Part shown: positions 34,594 through 63,276 of the stretch, piece after piece
Layout of the letters: each line of letters opens with the position of its first letter
Position numbering within the stretch: position 1 is the stretch's first letter
Source: Pseudomonadota bacterium
Lineage (GTDB): Bacteria; Pseudomonadota; Alphaproteobacteria; JACQOE01
Length of the DNA: 64,000 bases
Assembly: GCA_016202695.1 (NCBI GenBank)
Contig: JACQOE010000019.1
Coordinates: 1-64,000, forward strand
Reading direction: 5' to 3'
Program-made: the position numbers and the translations under genes
Notes under the pieces: model-generated
The model's input: only the letters and a program-made list of their open reading frames with translations
Database searches by the model: none
Told to the model about the DNA's origin: nothing

Positions 34594-36357
34594 GTGGAGA
34601 TCGATCCATTCAGGCGGGCACTGATCAAGAACGCGCTCGTGACCATCGCCGACAACATGGTGGTCACCGTGATCCGCACCTCGCGCTCGGCGGTGGTTAA
34701 GGTGAGCCTCGACTTCTCGACCTCGATCTGCGACGGGGCCGGTCAGATGGTCGCCCAGGGGCTGGCGATCCCGCTGCATCTCGGTGCGACCATGCCGGCG
34801 CTCAAGGGCTGCCTCGACCATTTCGGCGACGACATCCACGAGGGCGACATCGTCGCCCAGAACGACCCCTACTCGGGGGGAAGCCACCTCAACGACATCT
34901 TCATGTTCAAGCCGGTCTACAAGGACGGCGAGCGGGTGGCGTTTCTGAGCATCATCCTCCACCACACCGACATGGGCGGGAGGGTGCCGGGCGGCAACGC
35001 CACCGACTCGACCGAGATCTTCCAGGAGGGGCTGCGCATCCCGCCGACCAAGTTCTACGAGCGGGGCAAGCCCAACTCGACGATCTTCCGCCTGATCGAA
35101 CACAACGTCCGCGTGCCCGACCTCGTGCTCGGCGATGTGCGCGCCCAGATCGCCGCACTCAACATCGGCGAGCGCGAGATGCACAAGCTCCTAGGCGAGT
35201 ACGACCTCGCCGAGTTTAAGGCCTACATGGCCGACCTCATCGACTACTCGGAGCGTATGACCCGGGCCGGGATCGCCGCCCTTCCCGACGGCGAGGCCGA
35301 GTTCACCGACTACCTTGACGACAACGGCGCCGGCGGCGAGCCGGTGACGATCCACGTCAAGATCACGGTCCGCGGCGAGGAAATGCTGGTCGACTACACC
35401 GGCACCTCGCCCCAGACCACGGGCGCGCTGAACCCCAACCTGTGGTTCACCACCTCGTGCACCTACGCCGCGATCCGCACGCTGCTCGATCCCGACGTCC
35501 CCAACAACGCCGGCTTTTACAAGCCGATCCGGGTGGTGGCCCCGGAGGGCTGCTTCGTCAACCCGGTCTTCCCGGCGCCGCTCGGGGCGCGCGGCCTCGC
35601 CGGCCACCGGGTCTGCTCGACCGTGCTCGGCGCGCTCGCCCAGCTCAGGCCCGACCGGATGCAGGCCTGCCAGGGCGGCTCGGAGTTCGCCATCGTCTTC
35701 GCCGGCTACGACCCCGACCGCAAGCCGTTCCTGCTGCTCGAGTTTCACAACACCACCGGCCACGGCGGCGGCCCCGACCGCGACGGCCAGGACGCCGGAC
35801 CCTATTACCTCGCCAACCTGGCCAACACGCCGGTCGAATCGGTCGAGGCCGAGAATCCGGTGATGGTGGAGGAGTATGCGTTCCTGCCTGACACGGGCGG
35901 GCCGGGCAAGTACCGCGGCACGCTCGGGCTGGCGCGCCAGTACCGCCTGCTCGCCGAGCGGGCGACGGTGCAGCTCCGCTCCGACCGCCACCTGCACCGC
36001 TGCTGGGGGCTGTTCGGCGGCAAGTCCGGGGCGCCCGGGCGGAGCATCCTCAACCCCGGCAACGCCGCCCGCGATCTTCCCTCCAAGTTCCTCGGCACGA
36101 TGCGGCGGGGCGAGGTCTTCCGCGGCGAGATGCCGGGGGGCGGCGGCTACGGCGATCCGCTCGAGCGCGACGCCCGCGCGGTGCTGCACGACATCGTCCA
36201 GGAGAAGATGACGCTCCGCCACGCCCGTGACGAGTACGGCATCGTCGTCGAGCCGGCGACGCTCACGCTCGATCTGGCCGCGACCCGGAAACTGCGGGCC
36301 GAGCTTCGCCGCGGGCGGGGAGTGCCTGGGGGAGGGAGCGGTCCGACGGGCGGATGA
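34594..36357 (+). CDS. hyuB: HyuB-type hydantoinase/oxoprolinase subunit B, pair 2
   Basis: 587-aa B subunit. The start is the GTG at 34594, preceded by GGGAGG. Landmarks are NDPYSGGSHLNDIF, the HHTDMGGRVPGG block, FQEGLRIPP, VDYTGTSPQTTG and MPGGGGYGDPLERD. The HHTDMGG form is the classic one for HyuB and OPLAH-like proteins, in contrast to the other four copies. It ends 67 bp before the NMT1-like gene. Confidence 0.92.
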   Translation: MEIDPFRRALIKNALVTIADNMVVTVIRTSRSAVVKVSLDFSTSICDGAGQMVAQGLAIPLHLGATMPALKGCLDHFGDDIHEGDIVAQNDPYSGGSHLNDIFMFKPVYKDGERVAFLSIILHHTDMGGRVPGGNATDSTEIFQEGLRIPPTKFYERGKPNSTIFRLIEHNVRVPDLVLGDVRAQIAALNIGEREMHKLLGEYDLAEFKAYMADLIDYSERMTRAGIAALPDGEAEFTDYLDDNGAGGEPVTIHVKITVRGEEMLVDYTGTSPQTTGALNPNLWFTTSCTYAAIRTLLDPDVPNNAGFYKPIRVVAPEGCFVNPVFPAPLGARGLAGHRVCSTVLGALAQLRPDRMQACQGGSEFAIVFAGYDPDRKPFLLLEFHNTTGHGGGPDRDGQDAGPYYLANLANTPVESVEAENPVMVEEYAFLPDTGGPGKYRGTLGLARQYRLLAERATVQLRSDRHLHRCWGLFGGKSGAPGRSILNPGNAARDLPSKFLGTMRRGEVFRGEMPGGGGYGDPLERDARAVLHDIVQEKMTLRHARDEYGIVVEPATLTLDLAATRKLRAELRRGRGVPGGGSGPTGG

Positions 36358-36424: not shown

Positions 36425-37351
36425 ATGGCCAAGGATCTGCTCAAAGTGCTCGCCGCCACGTCGGGGGTGTACTATTACCCGGCCTATGTGGCCCATGACC
36501 TCGGCTGCTTCGCCGACGAGGGCCTGGAGGTGGCGCTGGAGGCCCCCGGGCACGGGCCCTGGGGCGCGCGGGCGCTCCTCGCTGGTGCGGCCGACATCGC
36601 TCTCGGCGGCATGTGGCGCCCGCTGATGTACCGCGGGCGGATCGCCGACTTCAGCGTCTTTGCCCAGCTCTGCGCCCGTTGCCCGGCCTTTATCCTGGGC
36701 CGACGGCCGATGCCGGACTTCGCCTGGTCCGACCTCGTTGGCAAGAGGGTCATCGTGCCCGACGGCGCGCCCACGCCGCTCCTGGCGATCCTCGGCATCC
36801 TCAGGCGGCGGGGGGTGGACCCGAAAACGGTGAATTTCATCCAGGACTTCCTCGCCGAGGAAGCGCGCGAGCTGTTCCTCAACGGCCTCGGCGACTTCTG
36901 CGTGGCCTTTCCGCCCGTCGCCGAGGCGCTGGTCGAGCGCGGCGCCGGGCACGTCGTCGCCGACCTCGCCGGGGCGGCCGGCCGGCTGCCGTGGAGCGTG
37001 TATTTTGCGACCCCCGCCTTCCTCGATCGGCCCGGCAATCCGGCGGGCCGCTTCACCCGGGCGATCCTGAGGGCGCTCCGCTGGACGCTCGGCCACGAGG
37101 CCGGGGAAGTGCCGGCGACGCTGGCGCGCCACTTCCCCGGCAGTCGTCCCGATCTCGCCGCAGCCGCGGTGCGCGCCTGCCGCGCGCGGGGCGTGTGGGT
37201 CGACGGCGTGCACGTCGCCAAGCCGGACCTCGACCTCTGGCAGGAAATGATCATCGAGGGGCACCTGATGGATCGACCGGTCCCCCATGGTGACATCTTC
37301 GATCCGCGCCCCGCCGACTGGGCGGCCGCGAGCCTTGGTGCGGGAGAATAG
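36425..37351 (+). CDS. NMT1/THI5-like solute-binding protein without signal peptide
   Basis: 308-aa protein of the ABC substrate-binding (NMT1/ThiY/SsuA-like) fold. It starts MAKDLLKVLAATSGVYYYPA and shows the fold's YVAHDLGCFADEGLEVAL, LLAGAADIALGG and VGKRVIVPDG blocks. There is no signal peptide or lipobox, and no ABC permease or ATPase next to it. It may be a cytoplasmic enzyme or sensor using this fold, as eukaryotic THI5/NMT1 does, or it may be mis-started. It is the third gene after hyuA2-hyuB2. GGAGGAACGGG precedes the start. Confidence 0.75.
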   Translation: MAKDLLKVLAATSGVYYYPAYVAHDLGCFADEGLEVALEAPGHGPWGARALLAGAADIALGGMWRPLMYRGRIADFSVFAQLCARCPAFILGRRPMPDFAWSDLVGKRVIVPDGAPTPLLAILGILRRRGVDPKTVNFIQDFLAEEARELFLNGLGDFCVAFPPVAEALVERGAGHVVADLAGAAGRLPWSVYFATPAFLDRPGNPAGRFTRAILRALRWTLGHEAGEVPATLARHFPGSRPDLAAAAVRACRARGVWVDGVHVAKPDLDLWQEMIIEGHLMDRPVPHGDIFDPRPADWAAASLGAGE

Positions 37352-37631: not shown

Positions 37632-38018
37632 TCAGTCGTCTTGTGTCGCGGCGAGCGGGGGGCGCGAGCCGATCCGCTCGGATGCCTCCATGAGAAGATC
37701 GCACAGGACCTTGCGGCCGGGGAGAGGCTGGATGTCCAGCGCCTCGCCGGTGACGCGCACCCGGCAGGCGAGGCGCGTATCGCCGTTCACGCGCAGCGCG
37801 CATGCCCCGCAGTTGCCGAGCTTGCAGAAGTGGGCGGCGAACGAGAAGGTGCTGTCGAACTGTCGGCGGATCGCGTAGAGGAGGTGGAGCACGGTGCTGT
37901 CGCGCTCGATTGCGACCTCGAAGCGCTCAGCCCGCGGGCTCCGTTCCCCGGGCCGCCGGCGGGATACCGTCACCGCCACGGTGAGCAGCTCATAGGGCTT
38001 CGGCCGCGGGGCACTCAT
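37632..38018 (-). CDS. Small 2Fe-2S protein (SdhB/FrdB N-domain only)
   Basis: 128-aa ferredoxin-like protein equal to the N-terminal 2Fe-2S domain of succinate dehydrogenase/fumarate reductase iron-sulfur subunits. Cluster ligands are Cys65, Cys70, Cys73 and Cys85 (C-x4-C-x2-C-x11-C). The second SdhB domain, with its 3Fe-4S and 4Fe-4S clusters, is missing, as are any membrane anchor genes. Its ATG overlaps the stop of the flavoprotein C-terminal part by 4 bp, so it is the electron partner of that flavoprotein and works in the cytoplasm. Confidence 0.85.
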   Translation of the reverse strand: MSAPRPKPYELLTVAVTVSRRRPGERSPRAERFEVAIERDSTVLHLLYAIRRQFDSTFSFAAHFCKLGNCGACALRVNGDTRLACRVRVTGEALDIQPLPGRKVLCDLLMEASERIGSRPPLAATQDD

Positions 38019-38407
38019 GGCGTCCCTCCCGGAATCTCGCGAACGATCCTGGTGCCCGCGTCCTCGCGTTCGAGGAGCAGGCGGGCCCGCCACCGCCCGT
38101 CGTCCCTCGCCGGGTGGTCGAGGCGGTTGTGGGCGCCGCGGGTCTCCTCGCGGGCGAGCGCGGCGAGGCAGTGGAGCCGGCCGCAGGAGAGGATGTTGTC
38201 GAGCTCGAGCCGCTCGATCCACTCCCAGTTGCAGATCGGCTCGGCCGAAGCCAAGCGGACGCGAGGCAGCCGTTCGCGCTCGATTTCCTGGAGGGCGGCG
38301 AGGGCGCGCCCGAGCGACTCCCGATCCTTCAGGATTCCGGCCTCGCGCTGCATCAGCCGCTGGACCGCGGCGCGGATCGCCCCGGGGCGCTCGGCACCAG
38401 CCGCGGC
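38015..38407 (-). pseudogene. C-terminal domain of the flavoprotein, beyond an in-frame TAG
   Basis: In the same frame as the upstream flavoprotein gene, directly after its TAG (38410-38408), an open frame of 130 codons encodes the C-terminal helical domain of SdhA/FrdA-type flavoproteins. The best landmark is REETRGAHNRLD-PARDD, which matches the RxESRGAHxRxD-xxxxxDD block of fumarate reductases. An internal ATG at 38353 could restart translation, giving a 112-aa fragment. The stop overlaps the 2Fe-2S gene by 4 bp, so operon coupling is preserved. It may be a nonsense mutation, a read-through site, a split gene or a sequence error. Confidence 0.7.
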
Positions 38408-39700
38408 CTAGCCGGCGCGGAGCGCCTCGATCCGTCGTGCCGCCGCCCGCAGGCTTCCGGGATCGATCGGCTTCGCCGTCGCCGTCGCCGCATCTTGCGC
38501 CGCCGACCGGCCGGCCTCGGCGCCAAAGACGACGGTCTCGGGCAACGCCGTCCCGGTAAGGCGGTTCGCGCCGTGCACCCCGCCCGCGGTCTCGCCGGCG
38601 GCGAACAGGCCGGCGACGCTCGTCCGGCAGGCCTCGTCGATCCAGACGCCTCCCATCATGTAGTGGGGGGCCGGCGCCACCTCCTGGGGCTCGCGGCAGG
38701 GGTCGATGCCGAGGTCGGCGAAGTAGCTCTCGACGAACTTGCTTCGCACCACATCCGCCGGCAGCCCGGTCGCGTCGAGGAACATGCCGCCGCGGGGCGT
38801 GGCGCCACCACCGCGTGCCTCGAGGGCCATGACGCGGGAGAGCGTGTCGCGGGTCGCGCGATTCACCGGGATGGTCTCGTAGCGGGCGAAGAACTCCTCG
38901 CCGCGGGCGTTTACCAGCTTCGCCCCCTGGTCGAGCAGCCGTCCGGTGGGGAAGTGCACGCCCCGCGCCCCCGGCGGGGCGACGAACACCGTCGGATAGC
39001 TCTGGAAGAACTCCATGTCCACGAGCCGCGCCCCGCAGCGATAGGCGAGCGCGACGCCGTCGCCGGTGAGCTCGGTCGGATTGGTCTGCAGCTCGTAGAT
39101 CTCCATCGCCCCCCCGGTGGCGAGCACCACCGCCCGGGTCGGGACGGCGAAGATCGTTCCCGAGCGGATGTCGACGCCGACGAGGCCCGCGACCGCTCCG
39201 TCGGTGACCAGCACGTCGGCCGCGAAGACGTGCTCCCACACCGGGATGTCGAGCGCGGCGACGGCGCGCCCCAAGGTCGCCATCATCGCCTTGCCGGTCT
39301 TGAGATCGACGTGAATCGCCCGCGGGAAGGCGTGTCCGGCGAAGCTCGCCAGCGCGAACCGGCCGTCCGCCTCCTCGTCCCAGGGCATGCCCATGGCCTT
39401 GAGTTCGAGCGCCTCGCCGCCGGCGCGCTCGGCGAGGAGGCGGGCAAGCCCCGGCTGGCTCATCCCGGCCCCGCCGGCGACGATGTCCTCGGCGAAGCGC
39501 TCGGCCGAATCCGAAGGCCCGAAGTATCCGAAGTGGGCGCAGTAGGAGAAGTTGGCGGATTCGGTTGCCCCGGAATGGAGCGCCATGCCCTTGGTGACGA
39601 CCGCGACGCGCGCGCCTCGGCGCTTGGCTTCGATCGCAGCTCGCAGGCCGGCGCCGCCGCTGCCGACCACGACGACGTCGAAACGCTTGTCCAGGATCAT
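38408..39700 (-). CDS. FAD-dependent fumarate-reductase-like flavoprotein (ends at in-frame TAG)
   Basis: 430-aa FAD-binding and capping domains of a fumarate reductase/aspartate oxidase family protein. The FAD site is VVVVGSGGAGLRAAIEA (9-25), with HSGATES (42-48) after it and GVHGANRL (374-381) near the end. Compared with E. coli FrdA, Arg284, His346 and Arg380 align with catalytic or binding residues, but the QYHPT histidine is a tyrosine (FQSYPT, Tyr235), so the substrate is probably not plain fumarate. The start overlaps the TctA stop (ATGA). The protein ends before the C-terminal domain because of the in-frame TAG. Confidence 0.85.
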   Translation of the reverse strand: MILDKRFDVVVVGSGGAGLRAAIEAKRRGARVAVVTKGMALHSGATESANFSYCAHFGYFGPSDSAERFAEDIVAGGAGMSQPGLARLLAERAGGEALELKAMGMPWDEEADGRFALASFAGHAFPRAIHVDLKTGKAMMATLGRAVAALDIPVWEHVFAADVLVTDGAVAGLVGVDIRSGTIFAVPTRAVVLATGGAMEIYELQTNPTELTGDGVALAYRCGARLVDMEFFQSYPTVFVAPPGARGVHFPTGRLLDQGAKLVNARGEEFFARYETIPVNRATRDTLSRVMALEARGGGATPRGGMFLDATGLPADVVRSKFVESYFADLGIDPCREPQEVAPAPHYMMGGVWIDEACRTSVAGLFAAGETAGGVHGANRLTGTALPETVVFGAEAGRSAAQDAATATAKPIDPGSLRAAARRIEALRAG

Positions 39701-41232
39701 TCGCTCGTGGTTGCCCCCGGAATTGCCGCCGATCCCCGCTGGCGCGCGTAGAGGAAGCTGCCGACGATCGAGGCCGCCGTCAGAACGAGGAAGAAAAGCG
39801 AGATCGGACGGGTGATGAAGGTAAGGAAGCTCCCCTGCGACAGGAGCAGCGCTTGGCGCGCCGAGTTCTCCAGCAGCGGCCCAAGAATGAAGCCGATCAC
39901 GACCGTGACCGGAGCGAACCCGCCCTTGCGCAGCACCGCGCCGCCGACTCCGGCGATGATCATCACGTAGACGTCGAACACGCTGTTGCCCAGGGCGAAG
40001 GTGCCGGCGACGCAGAGGATGAACACCACCGGCATCATGTGCGCGAGGCGGATGCGGGAGACTAGGTTGGAGGCGCGGATGAAGACCAGCCCCACCGGCC
40101 AATGGATCAGGTTGGTGATCATCATGCCGGCGTAAAGCGCGAACACGGTCACCCGGTGCTGCTCGAAGAGGAGGGGGCCGGGGGCGAGCCCCTGGATCAT
40201 CAAGGCCCCGAGCAGCACCGCGGCGACCACGTCGCCGGGGATGCCGAGGGCGAGGAGCGGGATCAGGTTGGCGCCGTTGACCGCGCTCGCCGCCGCCTCC
40301 GGCGCGGCGACCCCCTCGATGCTGCCTCGTCCGAACGCCTCTGGATTGGGCGAGAAGCGGCGGGCCTCTCCGTAGCCGACGAAGGCGGCGACGCTCTGGC
40401 CGATCCCGGGAAGGGCTCCGACGACGGTTCCGATTAGGGCCCCGATCGCGGTCGCGCGAGCGAACCGCGGAACCTCGTCGCGGGTGATGCGGCTGTCGTC
40501 GGGGTGCCGCGGCGGCGGCACCGTCGCCACCCGTCCCTGATCGGCATCGCGGGAGGCGAGCAGCTTCTCGGCGTGAAGGAATATCTCGGACAGCGCGAGC
40601 AGTCCGATCATCAGCGGGATCATGGCGATCCCGTCGCCGAGCTCGATCACGCCGAAAGTCAGGCGCGAGACGCCCGTGATCATGTCCATGCCGACGACGC
40701 CGAGCAGCACCCCGAGGGCCGCCCCCATGACCCCTTTGATCACCGCCCCGGTCGAGACCGCCCCCACCACGGTCAGCGCGAACACCATTAGCGAGGCATA
40801 TTCGGCCGGCCCGAACTTGAGCGCGACCCGGGCGAGCAACCCGGCCGAGAAGATCAGGACGATGTCGCTGAAGGTGTCGCCGATGAGGCCGGCGTAGAGG
40901 TTTGCCTTGAGCGCCTTGCCGCTCCGCCCCTGGAGCGCGAGCTGATGGCCGTCGAGGCAGGTGGCCGCCGCCGCCGGCGTGCCCGGGGTGTTGATGAGGA
41001 TGGCTGGGATGTTGCAGCCGAAGCTCGATCCCTTGCTGATCGCCATTAGCATGGGGATCGCCACCCATGGCGGCAGGTAATAGCTCAGCGGCAAAAGAAG
41101 CGCGATCCCGACGATGCCGGTGAGCCCGGGGATCGCGCCGAGGAGCGATCCGAAGCTGTATCCGAGGGTGATCCAAAGGACCGCCTGCCAGGTAAGCACC
41201 AGCGCCACGGCCTGGGCGATGTCGTGGATCAT
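39697..41232 (-). CDS. tctA: Tripartite tricarboxylate transporter large permease, system 1
   Basis: 511-aa TctA with about 11-12 membrane segments. Signature blocks are GAIPGLTGIVGIALLLPLSYY, NTPGTPAAAATCLDGHQLA, GIGQSVAAFVGYGEA and GVAAPEAAASAVNGANLIPLL. The start at 41232 excludes an Arg/Pro-rich extension that reads through tctB. Its stop overlaps the flavoprotein start by 4 bp, an unusual link between this transporter class and a redox enzyme. Confidence 0.93.
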   Translation of the reverse strand: MIHDIAQAVALVLTWQAVLWITLGYSFGSLLGAIPGLTGIVGIALLLPLSYYLPPWVAIPMLMAISKGSSFGCNIPAILINTPGTPAAAATCLDGHQLALQGRSGKALKANLYAGLIGDTFSDIVLIFSAGLLARVALKFGPAEYASLMVFALTVVGAVSTGAVIKGVMGAALGVLLGVVGMDMITGVSRLTFGVIELGDGIAMIPLMIGLLALSEIFLHAEKLLASRDADQGRVATVPPPRHPDDSRITRDEVPRFARATAIGALIGTVVGALPGIGQSVAAFVGYGEARRFSPNPEAFGRGSIEGVAAPEAAASAVNGANLIPLLALGIPGDVVAAVLLGALMIQGLAPGPLLFEQHRVTVFALYAGMMITNLIHWPVGLVFIRASNLVSRIRLAHMMPVVFILCVAGTFALGNSVFDVYVMIIAGVGGAVLRKGGFAPVTVVIGFILGPLLENSARQALLLSQGSFLTFITRPISLFFLVLTAASIVGSFLYARQRGSAAIPGATTSE

Positions 41233-41278
41233 TCCCGACCCCGCGGCCGGCGGCGTTGCGCCCGCATGCGCCCGCGCT

Positions 41279-41734
41279 TCATCCCAGGACTCCGGCCGGA
41301 AGCGGAACGCCCAGGAGCCGCACGAACACGGCATAGGTCGCCACCGCGGTGACGACGGCAATGGCGGCGCCGAACAGGGGGCGCCGCTCGCCGAATACGA
41401 ACAGCATCGCCGCCAGCGACAGGGCGCTGGCAACGATGAAGCCCGCCGGCACCAGTAACAGCCCGTAGAGCCCGGCGATGGCGGGGGTGACCAGGAATCG
41501 CGCGCCGACGCGCCGGTCGAGGCGCGGTTGCAGCCGCAGCCACTCGACCGCGAACAGCGCCAGCGCGAGCAGCCCGATCAGCGCCGCGATCGCCTTCGGA
41601 AAGGCGCCGGGAGACTGCGTGGCGTAGGATGGCTCCTCGATCCCGGCCGGGATCAGCACGAAATAGGTGAGGGCGGCTCCCAGGAGCCAAATCAGGGCCC
41701 AAAGGAGCGCACCCGTGCGCGGGGCGGGAGGCAT
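41279..41734 (-). CDS. tctB: Tripartite tricarboxylate transporter small permease, system 1
   Basis: 151-aa TctB-like membrane protein with four predicted membrane segments. A short loop after the first segment contains YATQSPGAFPKAIA, the usual G-x-x-P-R/K pattern. It lies between tctC and tctA in the standard order. Sequence conservation in this family is low, so the assignment rests mainly on size, topology and neighbours. Confidence 0.85.
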   Translation of the reverse strand: MPPAPRTGALLWALIWLLGAALTYFVLIPAGIEEPSYATQSPGAFPKAIAALIGLLALALFAVEWLRLQPRLDRRVGARFLVTPAIAGLYGLLLVPAGFIVASALSLAAMLFVFGERRPLFGAAIAVVTAVATYAVFVRLLGVPLPAGVLG

Positions 41735-41803: not shown

Positions 41804-42790
41804 CTACTTCTTCGTATACAGGCCGATCCCGAGAGTCTTCACGATCGCTCCAAACTCGTCGTAGCTCTTGTCGAGGACTGTCTTGGCGGTCGCCGAGTCG
41901 TGATAGATCGTCAGCATCGCAAGCTTTTCCATCACGTCCTTGAACTCGGGGTCCTGCATCGCCTTGGTGAACGCCTGCTCGAGGGTCTTCACCACGGCGG
42001 GGTTCATGCCGGGCGGGCCGGCGATCCCGAGCCAGGAGTTGAGGTCCCAGTCGTAGCCGAGCTCGCGGATGTTCTTGAGGTCGGGAAATTCCTTCACCTT
42101 CGCGTCCTGCAGGAGCGTAAGGAGCCGGACCTCGCCGCTCCGCACATGCGGCAGGATCTCGCCCGACACCACCGCCGTTCCCAGGTGGCCGCCGAGCAAC
42201 GCCGCCACCGCGGGCGCCCCGCCGCCGAAGGGAACGAAGGTGGCCTCGGCCTTGTTCTCGGCCATCAGCCGGGCCATGCCGAGGTGCGAGCTGGCGCCGA
42301 TGGCGGAGATGCCGGCGGTGAGCACCTTGGGATTCGCCTTGGCATACTCGACCAAGTCCTTGAGCGACTTCCACGGGGCGGCGGCGCGGACGGCGATGAA
42401 CGTCGTATAGGCGCCGTAGTTCATGATCGGCGTGAAATCCTTCTTCGCGTCGAACGGCATTTCACGCATGTGCGGACCGATCGCCGCGACGATGGCGTTG
42501 AACGTGGCCAGCGTGTAGCCGTCGGGCGCGGCCTTAGCCAGCTCGGCGAGTGCGGCGGCGCCGCCCGCGCCGGGCTTGTTGACGATGACCATGGGCTGGC
42601 CGAGATCCTTCGCGGCGACCTTGCCGATGGCGCGCGCGGTGAGATCGGTTGCCCCTCCGGCAGTGAACGGGACGAGGAAGGTGATCGGCTTCTCGGGGTA
42701 GGCGGCGGTCCCCGTCCCGGGGAAGGCGACCGCGCCGAGCGCGCCGAAAGCCGCCAGCGCGGCTCGGCTCCATCTAGGGAGAGAGCGCAT
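41804..42790 (-). CDS. tctC: Tripartite tricarboxylate transporter binding protein, system 1
   Basis: 328-aa TctC/Bug-family periplasmic binding protein. The Sec signal ends near GTGTAAYP; the ligand loops are YPEKPITFLVPFTAGGATDL and KAAPDGYTLAT. The start at 42790 has GGGAGGA nine bases upstream. Bug proteins bind a wide range of carboxylates and amides. A good promoter lies about 70-95 bp upstream, with a palindrome over its -35. Confidence 0.92.
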   Translation of the reverse strand: MRSLPRWSRAALAAFGALGAVAFPGTGTAAYPEKPITFLVPFTAGGATDLTARAIGKVAAKDLGQPMVIVNKPGAGGAAALAELAKAAPDGYTLATFNAIVAAIGPHMREMPFDAKKDFTPIMNYGAYTTFIAVRAAAPWKSLKDLVEYAKANPKVLTAGISAIGASSHLGMARLMAENKAEATFVPFGGGAPAVAALLGGHLGTAVVSGEILPHVRSGEVRLLTLLQDAKVKEFPDLKNIRELGYDWDLNSWLGIAGPPGMNPAVVKTLEQAFTKAMQDPEFKDVMEKLAMLTIYHDSATAKTVLDKSYDEFGAIVKTLGIGLYTKK

Positions 42791-42857
42791 TAGAATCCTC
42801 CCAGGTTTTGTATGGAAGAGGCCGTCGAAACCGGCGCCTCCGGGCAACAAAGGCCGT

Positions 42858-47041: not shown

Positions 47042-48655
47042 ATGTCAGCGACCGCTCCCCCGGCCATTGATCCGATCACGCTCGAGGTCCTGTGGACGCG
47101 GCTGATCTCGGTCGTCGACGAGGCCGCGCTCACCCTCCACCGCACCTCGTTCTCGACCGTGGTGCGCGAATCGCACGACTACACCTGCATGCTGCTGGAT
47201 GGTGCCGGCCGGGCGGTGGCGCAGGCGACGCGGAGCGTCCCCTCGTTCACCGGCACGCTTCCCATCTCGGTCAAGGCGTTCCTCGACAAGTATCCGGCGG
47301 AGTCGCTTCGCCCGGGCGACGCCATCATCAGCAACGACCCCTGGATCGGCACCGGCCATCTGCCCGATCTCACCGCGGCGATGCCGATCTTCGCCGCCGG
47401 GCGCCTGGTCGGCTTCGCCGGCGCGATCGCCCATATGCCGGACATCGGCGGCCGGCGCCGGGCGCCCGACAACCGGGACATTTACGAGGAAGGGCTTCAG
47501 GTTCCGATCCTCAAGCTCTATGAGGCGGGCCGTCCGAACGAGACCCTGTTCGAGGTGATCCGCCGCAACGTGCGCGTACCCGACGAGGTCGAGGGCGACA
47601 TCCACGCGATGATCGGCTCCTGCCACAAGATGAGGCTCGGCCTCGTCGATCTCCTCGCCGACTACGGGCTTTCGGGACTCGAGGCCGTGGCCGAGGCCAT
47701 CATCGACCGCACCGAGCGGGCGATGCGCCGCGCCATCGCGGCGATCCCCAACGGCACCTACACGGTCGACACTCCCATCGACTCCTTTGATACCAAGGCC
47801 CCGCTCCTGATCCGCTGCTCGGTCGTCGTCGGCGACGACGGGCTGGTTGTCGATTTCTCCGGAAGCTCGCCCCAGAATCCGACCCCGCTCAACTCGGTCA
47901 TGGGCTACACGATGGCCTACTCCATGTACGCGCTCAAATGCGTGCTCCTTCCCCAGGTCCCAAACAACGAAGGCATCACCCGGCCGATCCGCATCACCGC
48001 CCCCGAGGGCTGCTTCCTCAACGCCGCCTATCCGGCGGCGGTGGAGGCGCGAGCCACGGTGGGCCACTATTGCACCAGCGCGGTCTACAACAGCCTCGCG
48101 GTCGCGATCCCCGAGCGTATTCCGGCCGAGAGCGGAATCCCGCTGCACGGGTTTGCCATCCGCGGCCGCCACGACGGCCGGGCCTACGCCGGCATCTTCT
48201 TCGTCAACGGCGGACTCGGGGCGCGTCCCGACGACGACGGGGTTTCGACCACCAGCTTTCCGACCAACGTCTCGAACACGCCGGTCGAGATTCTCGAGCG
48301 GTCCTTTCCCCTGCGGTTCCACGACAAGAGCCTTATCCCCGGCTCGGCGGGACGCGGACTGTTCCGGGGCGGGCTCGGCCAGCGCGTGACCATGGAGGTC
48401 GTGAGTTCCGAGCCCATGACCCTGGTGATCCTCTCGCAACGGCTGAACTTCCCGCCCCGCGGCCGGCAGGGCGGCGCCGACGGCAGCCGCGAGCGCGTGC
48501 TGCTCAACGGCGAGCCGGTCGAGGGTGGGCGCCCGTTCAGCGTGGTGAACGGCGACGTGTTTACCCTCGAGCTTCCGGGTGGCGGGGGATTCGGCCCCGG
48601 GTCCGAGCGCGACCCGGCGCGGAAGGAAAGCGACGTGCGCGACGCCCTGGCCTGA
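47042..48655 (+). CDS. hyuB: HyuB-type hydantoinase/oxoprolinase subunit B, pair 3
   Basis: 537-aa B subunit, shorter than the copies in pairs 1 and 2. Landmarks are NDPWIGTGHLPDL, AHMPDIGGRRRAP, YEEGLQVPI, VDFSGSSPQNPTP and LPGGGGFGPGSERD. The C-terminus is trimmed just after the glycine-rich block. It lies 24 bp after hyuA3 and about 125 bp before the DUF1445 gene, all on the plus strand. Confidence 0.91.
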   Translation: MSATAPPAIDPITLEVLWTRLISVVDEAALTLHRTSFSTVVRESHDYTCMLLDGAGRAVAQATRSVPSFTGTLPISVKAFLDKYPAESLRPGDAIISNDPWIGTGHLPDLTAAMPIFAAGRLVGFAGAIAHMPDIGGRRRAPDNRDIYEEGLQVPILKLYEAGRPNETLFEVIRRNVRVPDEVEGDIHAMIGSCHKMRLGLVDLLADYGLSGLEAVAEAIIDRTERAMRRAIAAIPNGTYTVDTPIDSFDTKAPLLIRCSVVVGDDGLVVDFSGSSPQNPTPLNSVMGYTMAYSMYALKCVLLPQVPNNEGITRPIRITAPEGCFLNAAYPAAVEARATVGHYCTSAVYNSLAVAIPERIPAESGIPLHGFAIRGRHDGRAYAGIFFVNGGLGARPDDDGVSTTSFPTNVSNTPVEILERSFPLRFHDKSLIPGSAGRGLFRGGLGQRVTMEVVSSEPMTLVILSQRLNFPPRGRQGGADGSRERVLLNGEPVEGGRPFSVVNGDVFTLELPGGGGFGPGSERDPARKESDVRDALA

Positions 48656-57030: not shown

Positions 57031-58677
57031 ATGAGCCGATCCGGGCTCGGTCCGGTCAGGCTGGGGATCGTCTGGCAGCGACTCAACGGGCTGATGGACG
57101 AGGTTGCCCAGGCCTTCGTTCGCACCTCGTTCTCGACCGTGATCCGCGAGAACTGGGATCTTGCCTGCGCGCTCCTCGATCCCAGAGGGCGCCAGGTCGT
57201 GCAGTCGAGCCGCAGCGTTCCGTCCTTCATCGGTACGATGTCGCGGACCCTGGAGGCGATGCTTGCGGCCTATCCCGCCGAGACCCTGAAGCCCGGCGAC
57301 GTGCTGATCACGAACGACCCGTGGGTGTCGAGCGGGCACCTGAACGACATCACCATGGCCAAGCCCATATATCGCGGCGACCGGCCGCTCGGATTCGTCG
57401 CCAGTACTTTCCACTCGGTCGACATCGGCGGCGCGCCCTCGCCGGGCGCGCGCGATACCTACGAGGAGGGACTGTGGATTCCGGTGCGCAGGATCGTGCG
57501 CGCGGGCGAGGAGAACGAGGACATCGTCGCCGTGATCCGGCAGAACCTGCGCCAGCCGCGCGAGACCCTGGGCGACATCCGCGCCCAGTTCGCGGCCTAT
57601 GATGTGGCCGAGCGGCGCCTCATGCGGATCCTCGACGAGGAGGGGGTCGATGACTTCGACGCCGTGGTCGAGGAGATACTGGAGCGCTCGGAACAAAGCC
57701 TACGACGCGCCATCGCCCGCGCTCCCGACGGCGAATACGCGGGCGAGATCGTCGCCGACGGGGTCGATCACCCGCTCGCGATCCGGGCCAGGGTGCGGAT
57801 CGCGGGCTCCGACATCGACATCGACTTCACCGGCACCTCGCCGCAGGTCGCGCGGCCGATCAACTCCGTCGTCAACTACACATTTTCCTGGTGCGCGTTC
57901 GCCATCAAGTGCCTGTTCGATCCCGACGTCCCCAACAACGAGGGGTCGTTCCGGCCGATCCGCATCCACGTTCCCGAGGGATCGCTGCTCAATCCGCGGC
58001 CGCCGGCGCCGGTGTGGGCGCGCCACCTCTCCGGGCACTACGTGCCGCCGGTCATCTTCCGCGCCCTGGCGCCGATCCTGCCGGAGCGGGCGATGGCGGA
58101 GTCCGCGTCGCCGATCTGGACCGTCTATTTCAAGGGTGCCCAGGCCGGGGGCGAACCGTTCGTGAAGATGTACTTCATGTCCGGCGGACTTGGGGCACGA
58201 TCGAGCCTCGATGGGCCGGATTGCCGGAGCTTCCCGAGCAACATCTCGAACTCGCCGGTGGAGGTGTTCGAGAACGCGGTCCCGGTCATGATCCACGAGA
58301 AGACCCTGATCGACGACTCCGGAGGTCCGGGCCGCACGCGCGGCGGGTTGGGGCAGCGGATCGAGTTCGAGTCCCTCTCCGAGGGGCCGATCGTGATGAC
58401 CATCCGGCACGAGCGGGTGAAGAACCCGCCGCAGGGACTGCTTGGGGGCTTGGCCGGCAGCCGCGGCGTCAACCGCCTGAACGGCAAGGACATCCCAGCG
58501 ATGACCCAGATGGCGCTCGGCAAGGGGGACCGGCTCGCCTTCGAAACCCCGGGCGGCGGCGGCATCGGCCCGCCGGCGGAGCGCCCGCGCGACCTGGTCA
58601 AGCGCGACATGGAACTCGGCTACGTCTCGCCCGAGGCGGCGAGGACCGTCTATGGCTGGGGCGATGCCGGCGACTGA
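57031..58677 (+). CDS. hyuB: HyuB-type hydantoinase/oxoprolinase subunit B, pair 4
   Basis: 548-aa B subunit; here hyuB precedes hyuA, the reverse of pairs 1-3. ATG 57031 was preferred because GAGGGAAAG precedes it and it aligns with copy 5; ATG 57013, overlapping the tctA stop, is an alternative. Landmarks are NDPWVSSGHLNDI, FHSVDIGGAPSPGARDTYEEGLWIP and TPGGGGIGPPAERP. It overlaps hyuA4 by 26 bp. Close to copy 5 in sequence, including RTSFSxVxRxNWDLAxxLLD. Confidence 0.91.
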   Translation: MSRSGLGPVRLGIVWQRLNGLMDEVAQAFVRTSFSTVIRENWDLACALLDPRGRQVVQSSRSVPSFIGTMSRTLEAMLAAYPAETLKPGDVLITNDPWVSSGHLNDITMAKPIYRGDRPLGFVASTFHSVDIGGAPSPGARDTYEEGLWIPVRRIVRAGEENEDIVAVIRQNLRQPRETLGDIRAQFAAYDVAERRLMRILDEEGVDDFDAVVEEILERSEQSLRRAIARAPDGEYAGEIVADGVDHPLAIRARVRIAGSDIDIDFTGTSPQVARPINSVVNYTFSWCAFAIKCLFDPDVPNNEGSFRPIRIHVPEGSLLNPRPPAPVWARHLSGHYVPPVIFRALAPILPERAMAESASPIWTVYFKGAQAGGEPFVKMYFMSGGLGARSSLDGPDCRSFPSNISNSPVEVFENAVPVMIHEKTLIDDSGGPGRTRGGLGQRIEFESLSEGPIVMTIRHERVKNPPQGLLGGLAGSRGVNRLNGKDIPAMTQMALGKGDRLAFETPGGGGIGPPAERPRDLVKRDMELGYVSPEAARTVYGWGDAGD

Positions 58678-61590: not shown

Positions 61591-63276
61591 ATGGCGACAC
61601 TCAATCCGATCCAGCTCGGGGTCATCTGGCAGCGGCTGAGCGGCCTCTTCGACGAGGTCGCGCAGACCTTCGTGCGCACCTCCTTCTCCTCCGTGGTGCG
61701 CGACAACTGGGACCTCGCGTTCGGCCTGCTCGACACCAGGGGCCGGCAGTTCATGCAGCCGCGGCGCAGCATCCCCTCGTTCATCGGCACCATGCCGCGC
61801 ACGCTGCGGGCGATGCTCTCGGTCTATCCGGTCGCCGCCCTGGCGCCGGGGGATGTCCTGATCTCGAACGACTCCTGGCACGGAACCGGGCATCTCAACG
61901 ACATCACGATGATGCACCCGGTCTTCCGCGAGGGCCGCCTGATCTGCTTCATCGGCAGCGTCTTCCACACCGTCGACATCGGCGGCGCGCCCTCGGTCAA
62001 TGCGCGCGACTGCTACGAGGAGGGGATCTGCATCCCCATCGCCAAGATCCTCGACGGCGGCCGGGAGAACCGGGTGGTCGTCGACCTGATCGCCGAGAAC
62101 GTGCGCGAGCCGGGTGAGACCCTGGGCGACATCCGGGCCCAGTTCGCGGCCTACGGGGTGGCGACGCGAAAGCTCTTCCAGCTCATGGACGAGGAGGGGC
62201 TGGCGACGCTCGACGACGTCGCCGAGGAGATCGTCAGCCGGACCGAGCGGAGCATGCGCGGGGTGATCGCGGCCCTGCCGGACGGCGAGTACGGCGACGA
62301 GGTGATGGTGGACGGCTTCGACGAGCCGCTGGTGGTCCGCTGCCGGCTCTGCGTGCGCGGCTCGAACATCGTCGTCGATTACGCCGGCACCTCGGCGCAG
62401 ATCGACCGGCCGATCAACTCGGTCCTCAACTACACCTACGCCTACAGCGCCTACGCGCTCAAATGCGCGCTCGATCCGAAATCGCCGACCAACGATGGGG
62501 TGTTCCAGCCGATCGGCGTGACCGCTCCCGAGGGCACGCTCCTCAACGCCCGGCGCCCGGCACCGGTGTGGGGCCGCCACCTCGCCGGCCACTACGTCCC
62601 GTTCGCGATCTACGGCGCGCTCGCCAAGGTGGCGCCGGAGAGGGTCATCGCCGACTGCGGCTCGCCCTTGTGGAACGTCTATTTCAAGGGCCGGGACGCG
62701 CGGACCGGCAGGCCGTTCGTGAAGATGTTCTTCATGAACGGCGGCCACGGCGCCCGGCCACACATGGACGGACCCGGCTGCCTGAGCTTTCCGAGCAACG
62801 TCTCGAACCAGCCGATCGAGAGGTTCGAGAACCAAGTCCCCCTGATCGTCACCGAGAAGGCCCTGGTTCCCGACAGCGCGGGCGCCGGCCGCTTCCGCGG
62901 CGGGCCGGCGCAAAGGATCTCGTTCAGGGTGGTTGGCGACAGCCCGGTCACCGTGACCTTCCGTCACGAGCGGGTAAAGTTTCCGCCGCGCGGTCTTCTC
63001 GGCGGCGAGCCAGGAAGCCCGGGGGTCGAGACGGTCAACGGCCGGCGCGTGCCGGCGAAGACGAGCGAGGTGCTCAACCCGGGCGACGTCGTCACCTTCC
63101 AGATGCCCGGAGGAGGCGGCATGCACCCGCCGAAGGAGCGCGACCGCGCCCTCATCGCCGCCGACCTTCGCGCCGGCCTGATCACGCCCGAATTCGCCTG
63201 GGCCCGCTACGGCTACGGCCCGGACCCGACGGACGCCGCGCCGGAGCGGACCGACTCCACGGCCGGACTTCGCTAG
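61591..63276 (+). CDS. hyuB: HyuB-type hydantoinase/oxoprolinase subunit B, pair 5
   Basis: 561-aa B subunit. ATG 61591 follows TGAGGGGG; the upstream extension is antisense to the HpaI-like gene and rejected. Landmarks are NDSWHGTGHLNDI (Ser replaces the usual Pro after ND), FHTVDIGGAPSVNARDCYEEG, DYAGTSAQIDRP and MPGGGGMHPPKERD. Very similar to copy 4. hyuA5 starts 13 bp after its stop. Confidence 0.91.
   Translation: MATLNPIQLGVIWQRLSGLFDEVAQTFVRTSFSSVVRDNWDLAFGLLDTRGRQFMQPRRSIPSFIGTMPRTLRAMLSVYPVAALAPGDVLISNDSWHGTGHLNDITMMHPVFREGRLICFIGSVFHTVDIGGAPSVNARDCYEEGICIPIAKILDGGRENRVVVDLIAENVREPGETLGDIRAQFAAYGVATRKLFQLMDEEGLATLDDVAEEIVSRTERSMRGVIAALPDGEYGDEVMVDGFDEPLVVRCRLCVRGSNIVVDYAGTSAQIDRPINSVLNYTYAYSAYALKCALDPKSPTNDGVFQPIGVTAPEGTLLNARRPAPVWGRHLAGHYVPFAIYGALAKVAPERVIADCGSPLWNVYFKGRDARTGRPFVKMFFMNGGHGARPHMDGPGCLSFPSNVSNQPIERFENQVPLIVTEKALVPDSAGAGRFRGGPAQRISFRVVGDSPVTVTFRHERVKFPPRGLLGGEPGSPGVETVNGRRVPAKTSEVLNPGDVVTFQMPGGGGMHPPKERDRALIAADLRAGLITPEFAWARYGYGPDPTDAAPERTDSTAGLR

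Follow-up and report, generated by a model that had tools for sequence, protein, structure and literature searches.

In fumarate reductase of Escherichia coli, the flavoprotein subunit FrdA binds its substrate with H232, H355, and R390, and uses R287 as the proton donor (the active-site descriptions in PMC5773532 and PMC10238741). As for interrupted genes, the parts of Belinky et al. (2021, PMC7918605) that deal with in-frame stops describe them as widespread in bacterial genes and mostly of the age of polymorphisms. Genes with each of the three types of stop codon show purifying selection (the selection analysis in PMC7918605). Here we describe an alphaproteobacterial relative of FrdA whose gene contains one in-frame TAG, and we consider how this TAG might have arisen.

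The operon and its flavoprotein

The source is a draft genome of 100 contigs that total 3.36 Mb, with a completeness of 87.15% and a contamination of 4.68%, and the window that we analysed is a 64,000-nucleotide stretch of one contig. The operon lies on the minus strand in the order tctC-tctB-tctA-flavoprotein-2Fe-2S. The first three genes encode a tripartite tricarboxylate transporter: the solute-binding protein TctC (longest open frame 41804..42850; PF03401, E = 6.4e-60), the small membrane subunit TctB (41279..41734; PF07331, E = 2.2e-17), and the large membrane subunit TctA (longest open frame 39697..41433; PF01970, E = 1.8e-129). The true start of tctA probably lies further inside its longest open frame. 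The last gene (37632..38018) encodes a 2Fe-2S protein of 128 amino acids whose sole Pfam match is Fer2_3 (PF13085, E = 4.3e-19), with no second iron-sulfur domain. Judging by the profile matches, the genes of the operon other than the flavoprotein gene are intact. No membrane-anchor gene was found among the five genes, and none of the literature matches listed concerned an operon that combines a tct transporter with an SdhA-like flavoprotein and a 2Fe-2S protein. Directly past the 2Fe-2S gene and convergent to the operon is a gene for an NMT1-like protein (36425-37351, plus strand; PF09084).

With X in place of the stop, the complete flavoprotein chain matches FAD_binding_2 and then Succ_DH_flav_C in one frame, both above the gathering score, which places it in the SdhA/FrdA superfamily. 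The predicted structure (mean pLDDT 77.6, pTM 0.86) agrees: its best Foldseek match is E. coli FrdA (1kf6; E = 1.3e-41, TM 0.84, 32% identity). For the fold, the earlier description of the protein as fumarate-reductase-like is right, but the FrdA/SdhA substrate site is altered in two features. H346 and R380 are the equivalents of H355 and R390 of FrdA and are kept. In contrast, H232 is replaced by Y235, and the RGEGG stretch, which holds the proton donor R287 in FrdA, is either missing or rearranged. (R254 could be a substitute for R287 in some alignments, but the alignments disagree.) Nor is the histidine for covalent attachment of FAD in FrdA in place in the window protein. Other SdhA-like flavoproteins, at our loci L003, L037, L039, L040, and L041, form a subgroup with the window protein in that they lack the HPTG and RGEGG active-site stretches.

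The profile scores also fall below the curated cut-offs for genuine succinate dehydrogenases and fumarate reductases (362.4 vs. 567.3 bits for TIGR01812, 313 vs. 727.35 for TIGR01816, and 292 vs. 932.7 for TIGR01176). The top-scoring NCBIfam model is TfrA of thiol:fumarate reductase (NF004900, residues 7-547), although the score of 390.9 bits is far below its curated cut-off of 718 bits. Similarly, the 2Fe-2S protein best matches the start of TfrB, but the match is limited to the 2Fe-2S part of TfrB. Unlike the E. coli enzyme, the window operon has neither membrane-anchor genes nor a second iron-sulfur domain. Because the partner has a single 2Fe-2S domain and the operon has no anchor genes, the description that suits the flavoprotein best is that of a soluble SdhA/FrdA relative. 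It probably acts on a carboxylate that is imported by the adjoining transporter. More broadly, because the transporter shares an operon with an SdhA-like flavoprotein with an altered substrate site and with a one-domain 2Fe-2S partner, the arrangement points to a soluble oxidoreductase that acts on an imported carboxylate and is not a standard fumarate reductase.

The in-frame TAG and the domain beyond it

The flavoprotein frame runs from 39700 to 38015 on the minus strand and contains one stop only, a TAG at 38410-38408. Codons 1-430 (38411..39700) encode the FAD-binding and capping domains (PF00890 FAD_binding_2, residues 8-386, E = 6.4e-70), TAG is codon 431 (38408..38410, minus strand) in the linker, and the frame past it (38015..38407, minus strand, 130 amino acids) encodes the C-terminal helical domain (PF02910 Succ_DH_flav_C, E = 6.8e-26) and contains REETRGAHNRLD. 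The frame ends with a TGA at 38017-38015. The earlier note had claimed that the TAG is in the same frame as an intact C-terminal domain and that the ATGA overlaps on both sides are preserved, and we found both to be so: the tctA stop overlaps the flavoprotein start at 39700-39697, and the flavoprotein stop overlaps the 2Fe-2S start at 38018-38015. On its own, openness over 130 codons is weak evidence: in a window of 68% G+C such as this one, 33% of random frames are equally open. What makes the downstream frame more than a chance opening is its match to the domain profile, together with the conserved columns.

In an alignment with 49 relatives, the TAG codon falls in an insertion column of the window protein, within a linker of variable length. 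Therefore, a codon that is clearly homologous to the TAG is found in none of the relatives. In the predicted structure, residue 431 is in a loop (429-438) between two helices (414-428 and 439-453).

We used the same 49 relatives to compare constraint on the two sides of the stop, counting columns with a conservation of 70% or more. The window protein is identical at 19 of 23 such columns in the C-terminal domain and at 98 of 137 in the FAD domain. The four C-terminal differences are all conservative (V456I, R458K, L503I, and S520T), and one of these, R458, is invariant in the relatives (49/49) and is K in the window protein. Mean identity in the C-terminal domain minus that in the FAD domain is −0.046, a value that ranks third from the top among 50 sequences; a domain that had long been untranslated would be expected at the opposite end of this ranking. 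G+C content at codon positions 1, 2, and 3 is similar on the two sides of the TAG (0.72, 0.53, and 0.91 before it and 0.78, 0.54, and 0.89 after it). At 0.215, codon usage after the TAG scores a little lower than the 5th percentile (0.243) for 59 gene stretches of the window, although the 2Fe-2S gene, which is unbroken, has an even lower score (0.192). We rejected an old pseudogene because there is a single stop and conservation after it is no worse than before it.

These data also bear on whether the 430-residue chain is a working, shortened enzyme for which the FAD and capping domains suffice and the rest is dispensable. FAD_binding_2 is complete ahead of the TAG, and the helical domain is missing from some soluble reductases. 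Also, soluble homologues of complex II are known, including yeast fumarate reductase and L-aspartate oxidase (examples given in PMC10238741). But constraint on the C-terminal domain, including an ESRGAHxRxD-like motif, is not relaxed, and all of the closest relatives keep the domain, so we consider a working short enzyme very unlikely.

Another proposal, from the earlier note, was a two-chain enzyme whose C-terminal domain is started separately at the ATG at 38353 (38351..38353, minus strand), which is the first in-frame ATG past the TAG. This ATG lies 54 bases beyond the stop and is followed by the rest of the domain. Its predicted Shine-Dalgarno duplex with the 16S tail, however, is weak (−2.9 kcal/mol, as compared to −8.6 for the flavoprotein start and −10.8 for the 2Fe-2S start), close to that of a typical interior ATG (median −2.7, n = 80), and 49% of the interior ATGs reach its value. 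Because some presumed starts in the window also score poorly (for example 0, −0.5, and −1.9), we regard the duplex test as supportive and not decisive. The ATG would also begin translation inside a helix, as M450 is within helix 439-453, and its column is M in 86% of the 49 aligned relatives. With no split relative found either, we judge this ATG not to be a start, and separate translation of the domain hardly seems credible. An evolved split gene was rejected on similar grounds (no ribosome-binding site, a start that is not at the domain boundary, and no split relatives).

Relatives and the decoding of TAG

Our first set of relatives was 57 genomes that share just the class with the source genome. 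Among the 67 strongest matches below the window's own match, 57 were full-length (3 paralogues from the source genome itself and 54 matches in 44 other genomes), and none of these 57 has an internal stop. Matches in eight other genomes, from a search of 384 other genomes of the class, are likewise unbroken. (Four weak and short matches, in G011, G025, G044, and G055, do have stops, all with E > 8e-6.) None of the relatives examined is split into two separate genes, the arrangement that the earlier note had set against its claim of an interruption. That note had also proposed aligning relatives to find a sense codon at the site of the TAG. The relatives are indeed unbroken, but as explained above they offer no clearly homologous codon there.

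The relatives are distant. We found no ortholog above about 39% identity in the 57 relatives, the 384 genomes of the class, 397 genomes of the phylum, the GTDB contigs, or plasmids, and no relative that is close enough for dN/dS or for dating the stop. In the GTDB contig collection, the best 80 of 89 relatives are at most 38% identical and are mostly from Nitrospira; by alignment, some of these contig relatives resemble L-aspartate oxidase. The two closest matches are loci from the same class, L169 of G377 and L170 of G299. In each, an intact SdhA/FrdA-family flavoprotein is directly followed by a one-domain 2Fe-2S protein of 103 amino acids. Both flavoproteins are unbroken and are 34-35% identical to the window protein, and the one in G377 has the same two Pfam domains (FAD_binding_2 and Succ_DH_flav_C). 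Unlike in the window, neither 13-kb stretch has a match to TctA, TctB, or TctC. These loci imply that a flavoprotein followed by such a 2Fe-2S gene, as in the window, is a genuine arrangement and that the flavoprotein is normally one chain. A possible second in-frame TAG, on contig C16 of the source genome, reads as the normal stop of a different flavoprotein gene; the sequence beyond it is unrelated.

Both RF1 (on contig C33) and RF2 (on C63) are present, judging from PF00472 matches and the sequences themselves; we take the tripeptide motif to tell which of the two is which. The earlier note had suggested looking for amber-suppressor tRNA genes, and no CUA anticodon is present among the 34 tRNA genes, a set that is incomplete (no tRNA for Lys, Trp, or Ile is listed). 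As several expected tRNAs are missing, the missing CUA tRNA is weak evidence. Among 130 other domain matches in the genome (58 HyuB, 64 ABC, and 8 TctC), none has an internal stop. As background, 1 of 114 hydantoinase B matches across the 57 other relatives has one, an in-frame TAG at G034:C5:15870-16526 that is a possible second case of this kind. We rejected reassignment of TAG or a suppressor genome because RF1 is present, no CUA tRNA was found in the incomplete set, and in-frame TAG does not recur in the 130 domain matches. Read-through as an organism-wide rule, which the earlier note had listed, is disfavoured by the same observations.

Local read-through of this one TAG, in which some of the enzyme is made full-length and stands in a functional ratio to the short form, would account for the constraint that persists on both sides of the stop. 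The inserted residue would occupy a loop that the predicted structure suggests is tolerant, and read-through has been proposed as widespread in bacteria (a proposal made in PMC7918605). Against this, both release factors are present, the 34 tRNA genes of the incomplete set include no CUA, the 130 other domain matches have no internal TAG, and the stop is common to no relative that we examined. We therefore think that read-through is very unlikely here. A stronger version, in which the TAG is a maintained switch between a short two-domain form and a low level of full enzyme by read-through, seems more doubtful still. If it were true, then the efficiency of RF1 would set both the ratio of the two forms and the coupling to the 2Fe-2S gene.

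Origin and meaning of the interruption

Of the four explanations that the earlier note had listed, two remain good, namely a base error and a nonsense mutation of recent date; the split enzyme and read-through are disfavoured. Our preferred explanation, which we hold with moderate confidence, is that an ordinary SdhA/FrdA-family gene, which codes for a single chain, very recently gained one nonsense codon in its linker. Given RF1, translation of the gene as sequenced would end after residue 430. The FAD-binding and capping domains would remain in the truncated product, which would lack the C-terminal domain. The 2Fe-2S gene, although it has a strong ribosome-binding site of its own, would no longer be coupled to the flavoprotein stop. 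The lesion would be too young for subsequent decay. We infer that the TAG codon is real and recent and that the activity of the flavoprotein has been lost or lowered.

As in-frame stops are already widespread in bacteria, going by the survey in PMC7918605, this TAG belongs to a known kind. Like the cases described there by Belinky et al. (2021), it is a lone nonsense codon with coding constraint on both sides. The difference is that those cases, as the paper presents them, rest on stops that are common to close relatives and on dN/dS (PMC7918605), whereas here a single genome carries the TAG.

The main competitor to a recent nonsense codon is an error in the consensus, or a base from a minority strain that was fixed by the assembly, so that the real gene is uninterrupted. 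We consider this possible but rather less probable. It would fit a single isolated codon in a gene and operon that are otherwise intact. It would also fit the state of the draft, with its 100 contigs, incompleteness, and contamination, and the assembly is tangled in places, as contig ends truncate at least 10 of the 58 matches to hydantoinase B. On the other hand, errors are not rampant, as none of the 130 domain matches discussed above has an internal stop, and the genes that we examined around the operon are open.

If the TAG is a nonsense lesion, then it is of minor import. It warns annotators against recording two genes here, and it is one more case among the young in-frame stops already known.

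A separate observation is that hydantoinase B (PF02538) is greatly expanded in this genome, with 58 matches in 3.36 Mb; the maximum among the 57 other genomes of the class is 17, although the E-value limits for those genomes differ from those for the source genome. Four of the matches are inside the window (34603-36159, 47069-48598, 57052-58575, and 61603-63123). The matches that are cut by a contig end are on C16, C22, C34, C36, C51, C53, C56, C69, C92, and C94. Because at least 10 of the 58 are cut in this way, the data suggest that the assembly breaks at similar hydantoinase B paralogues.
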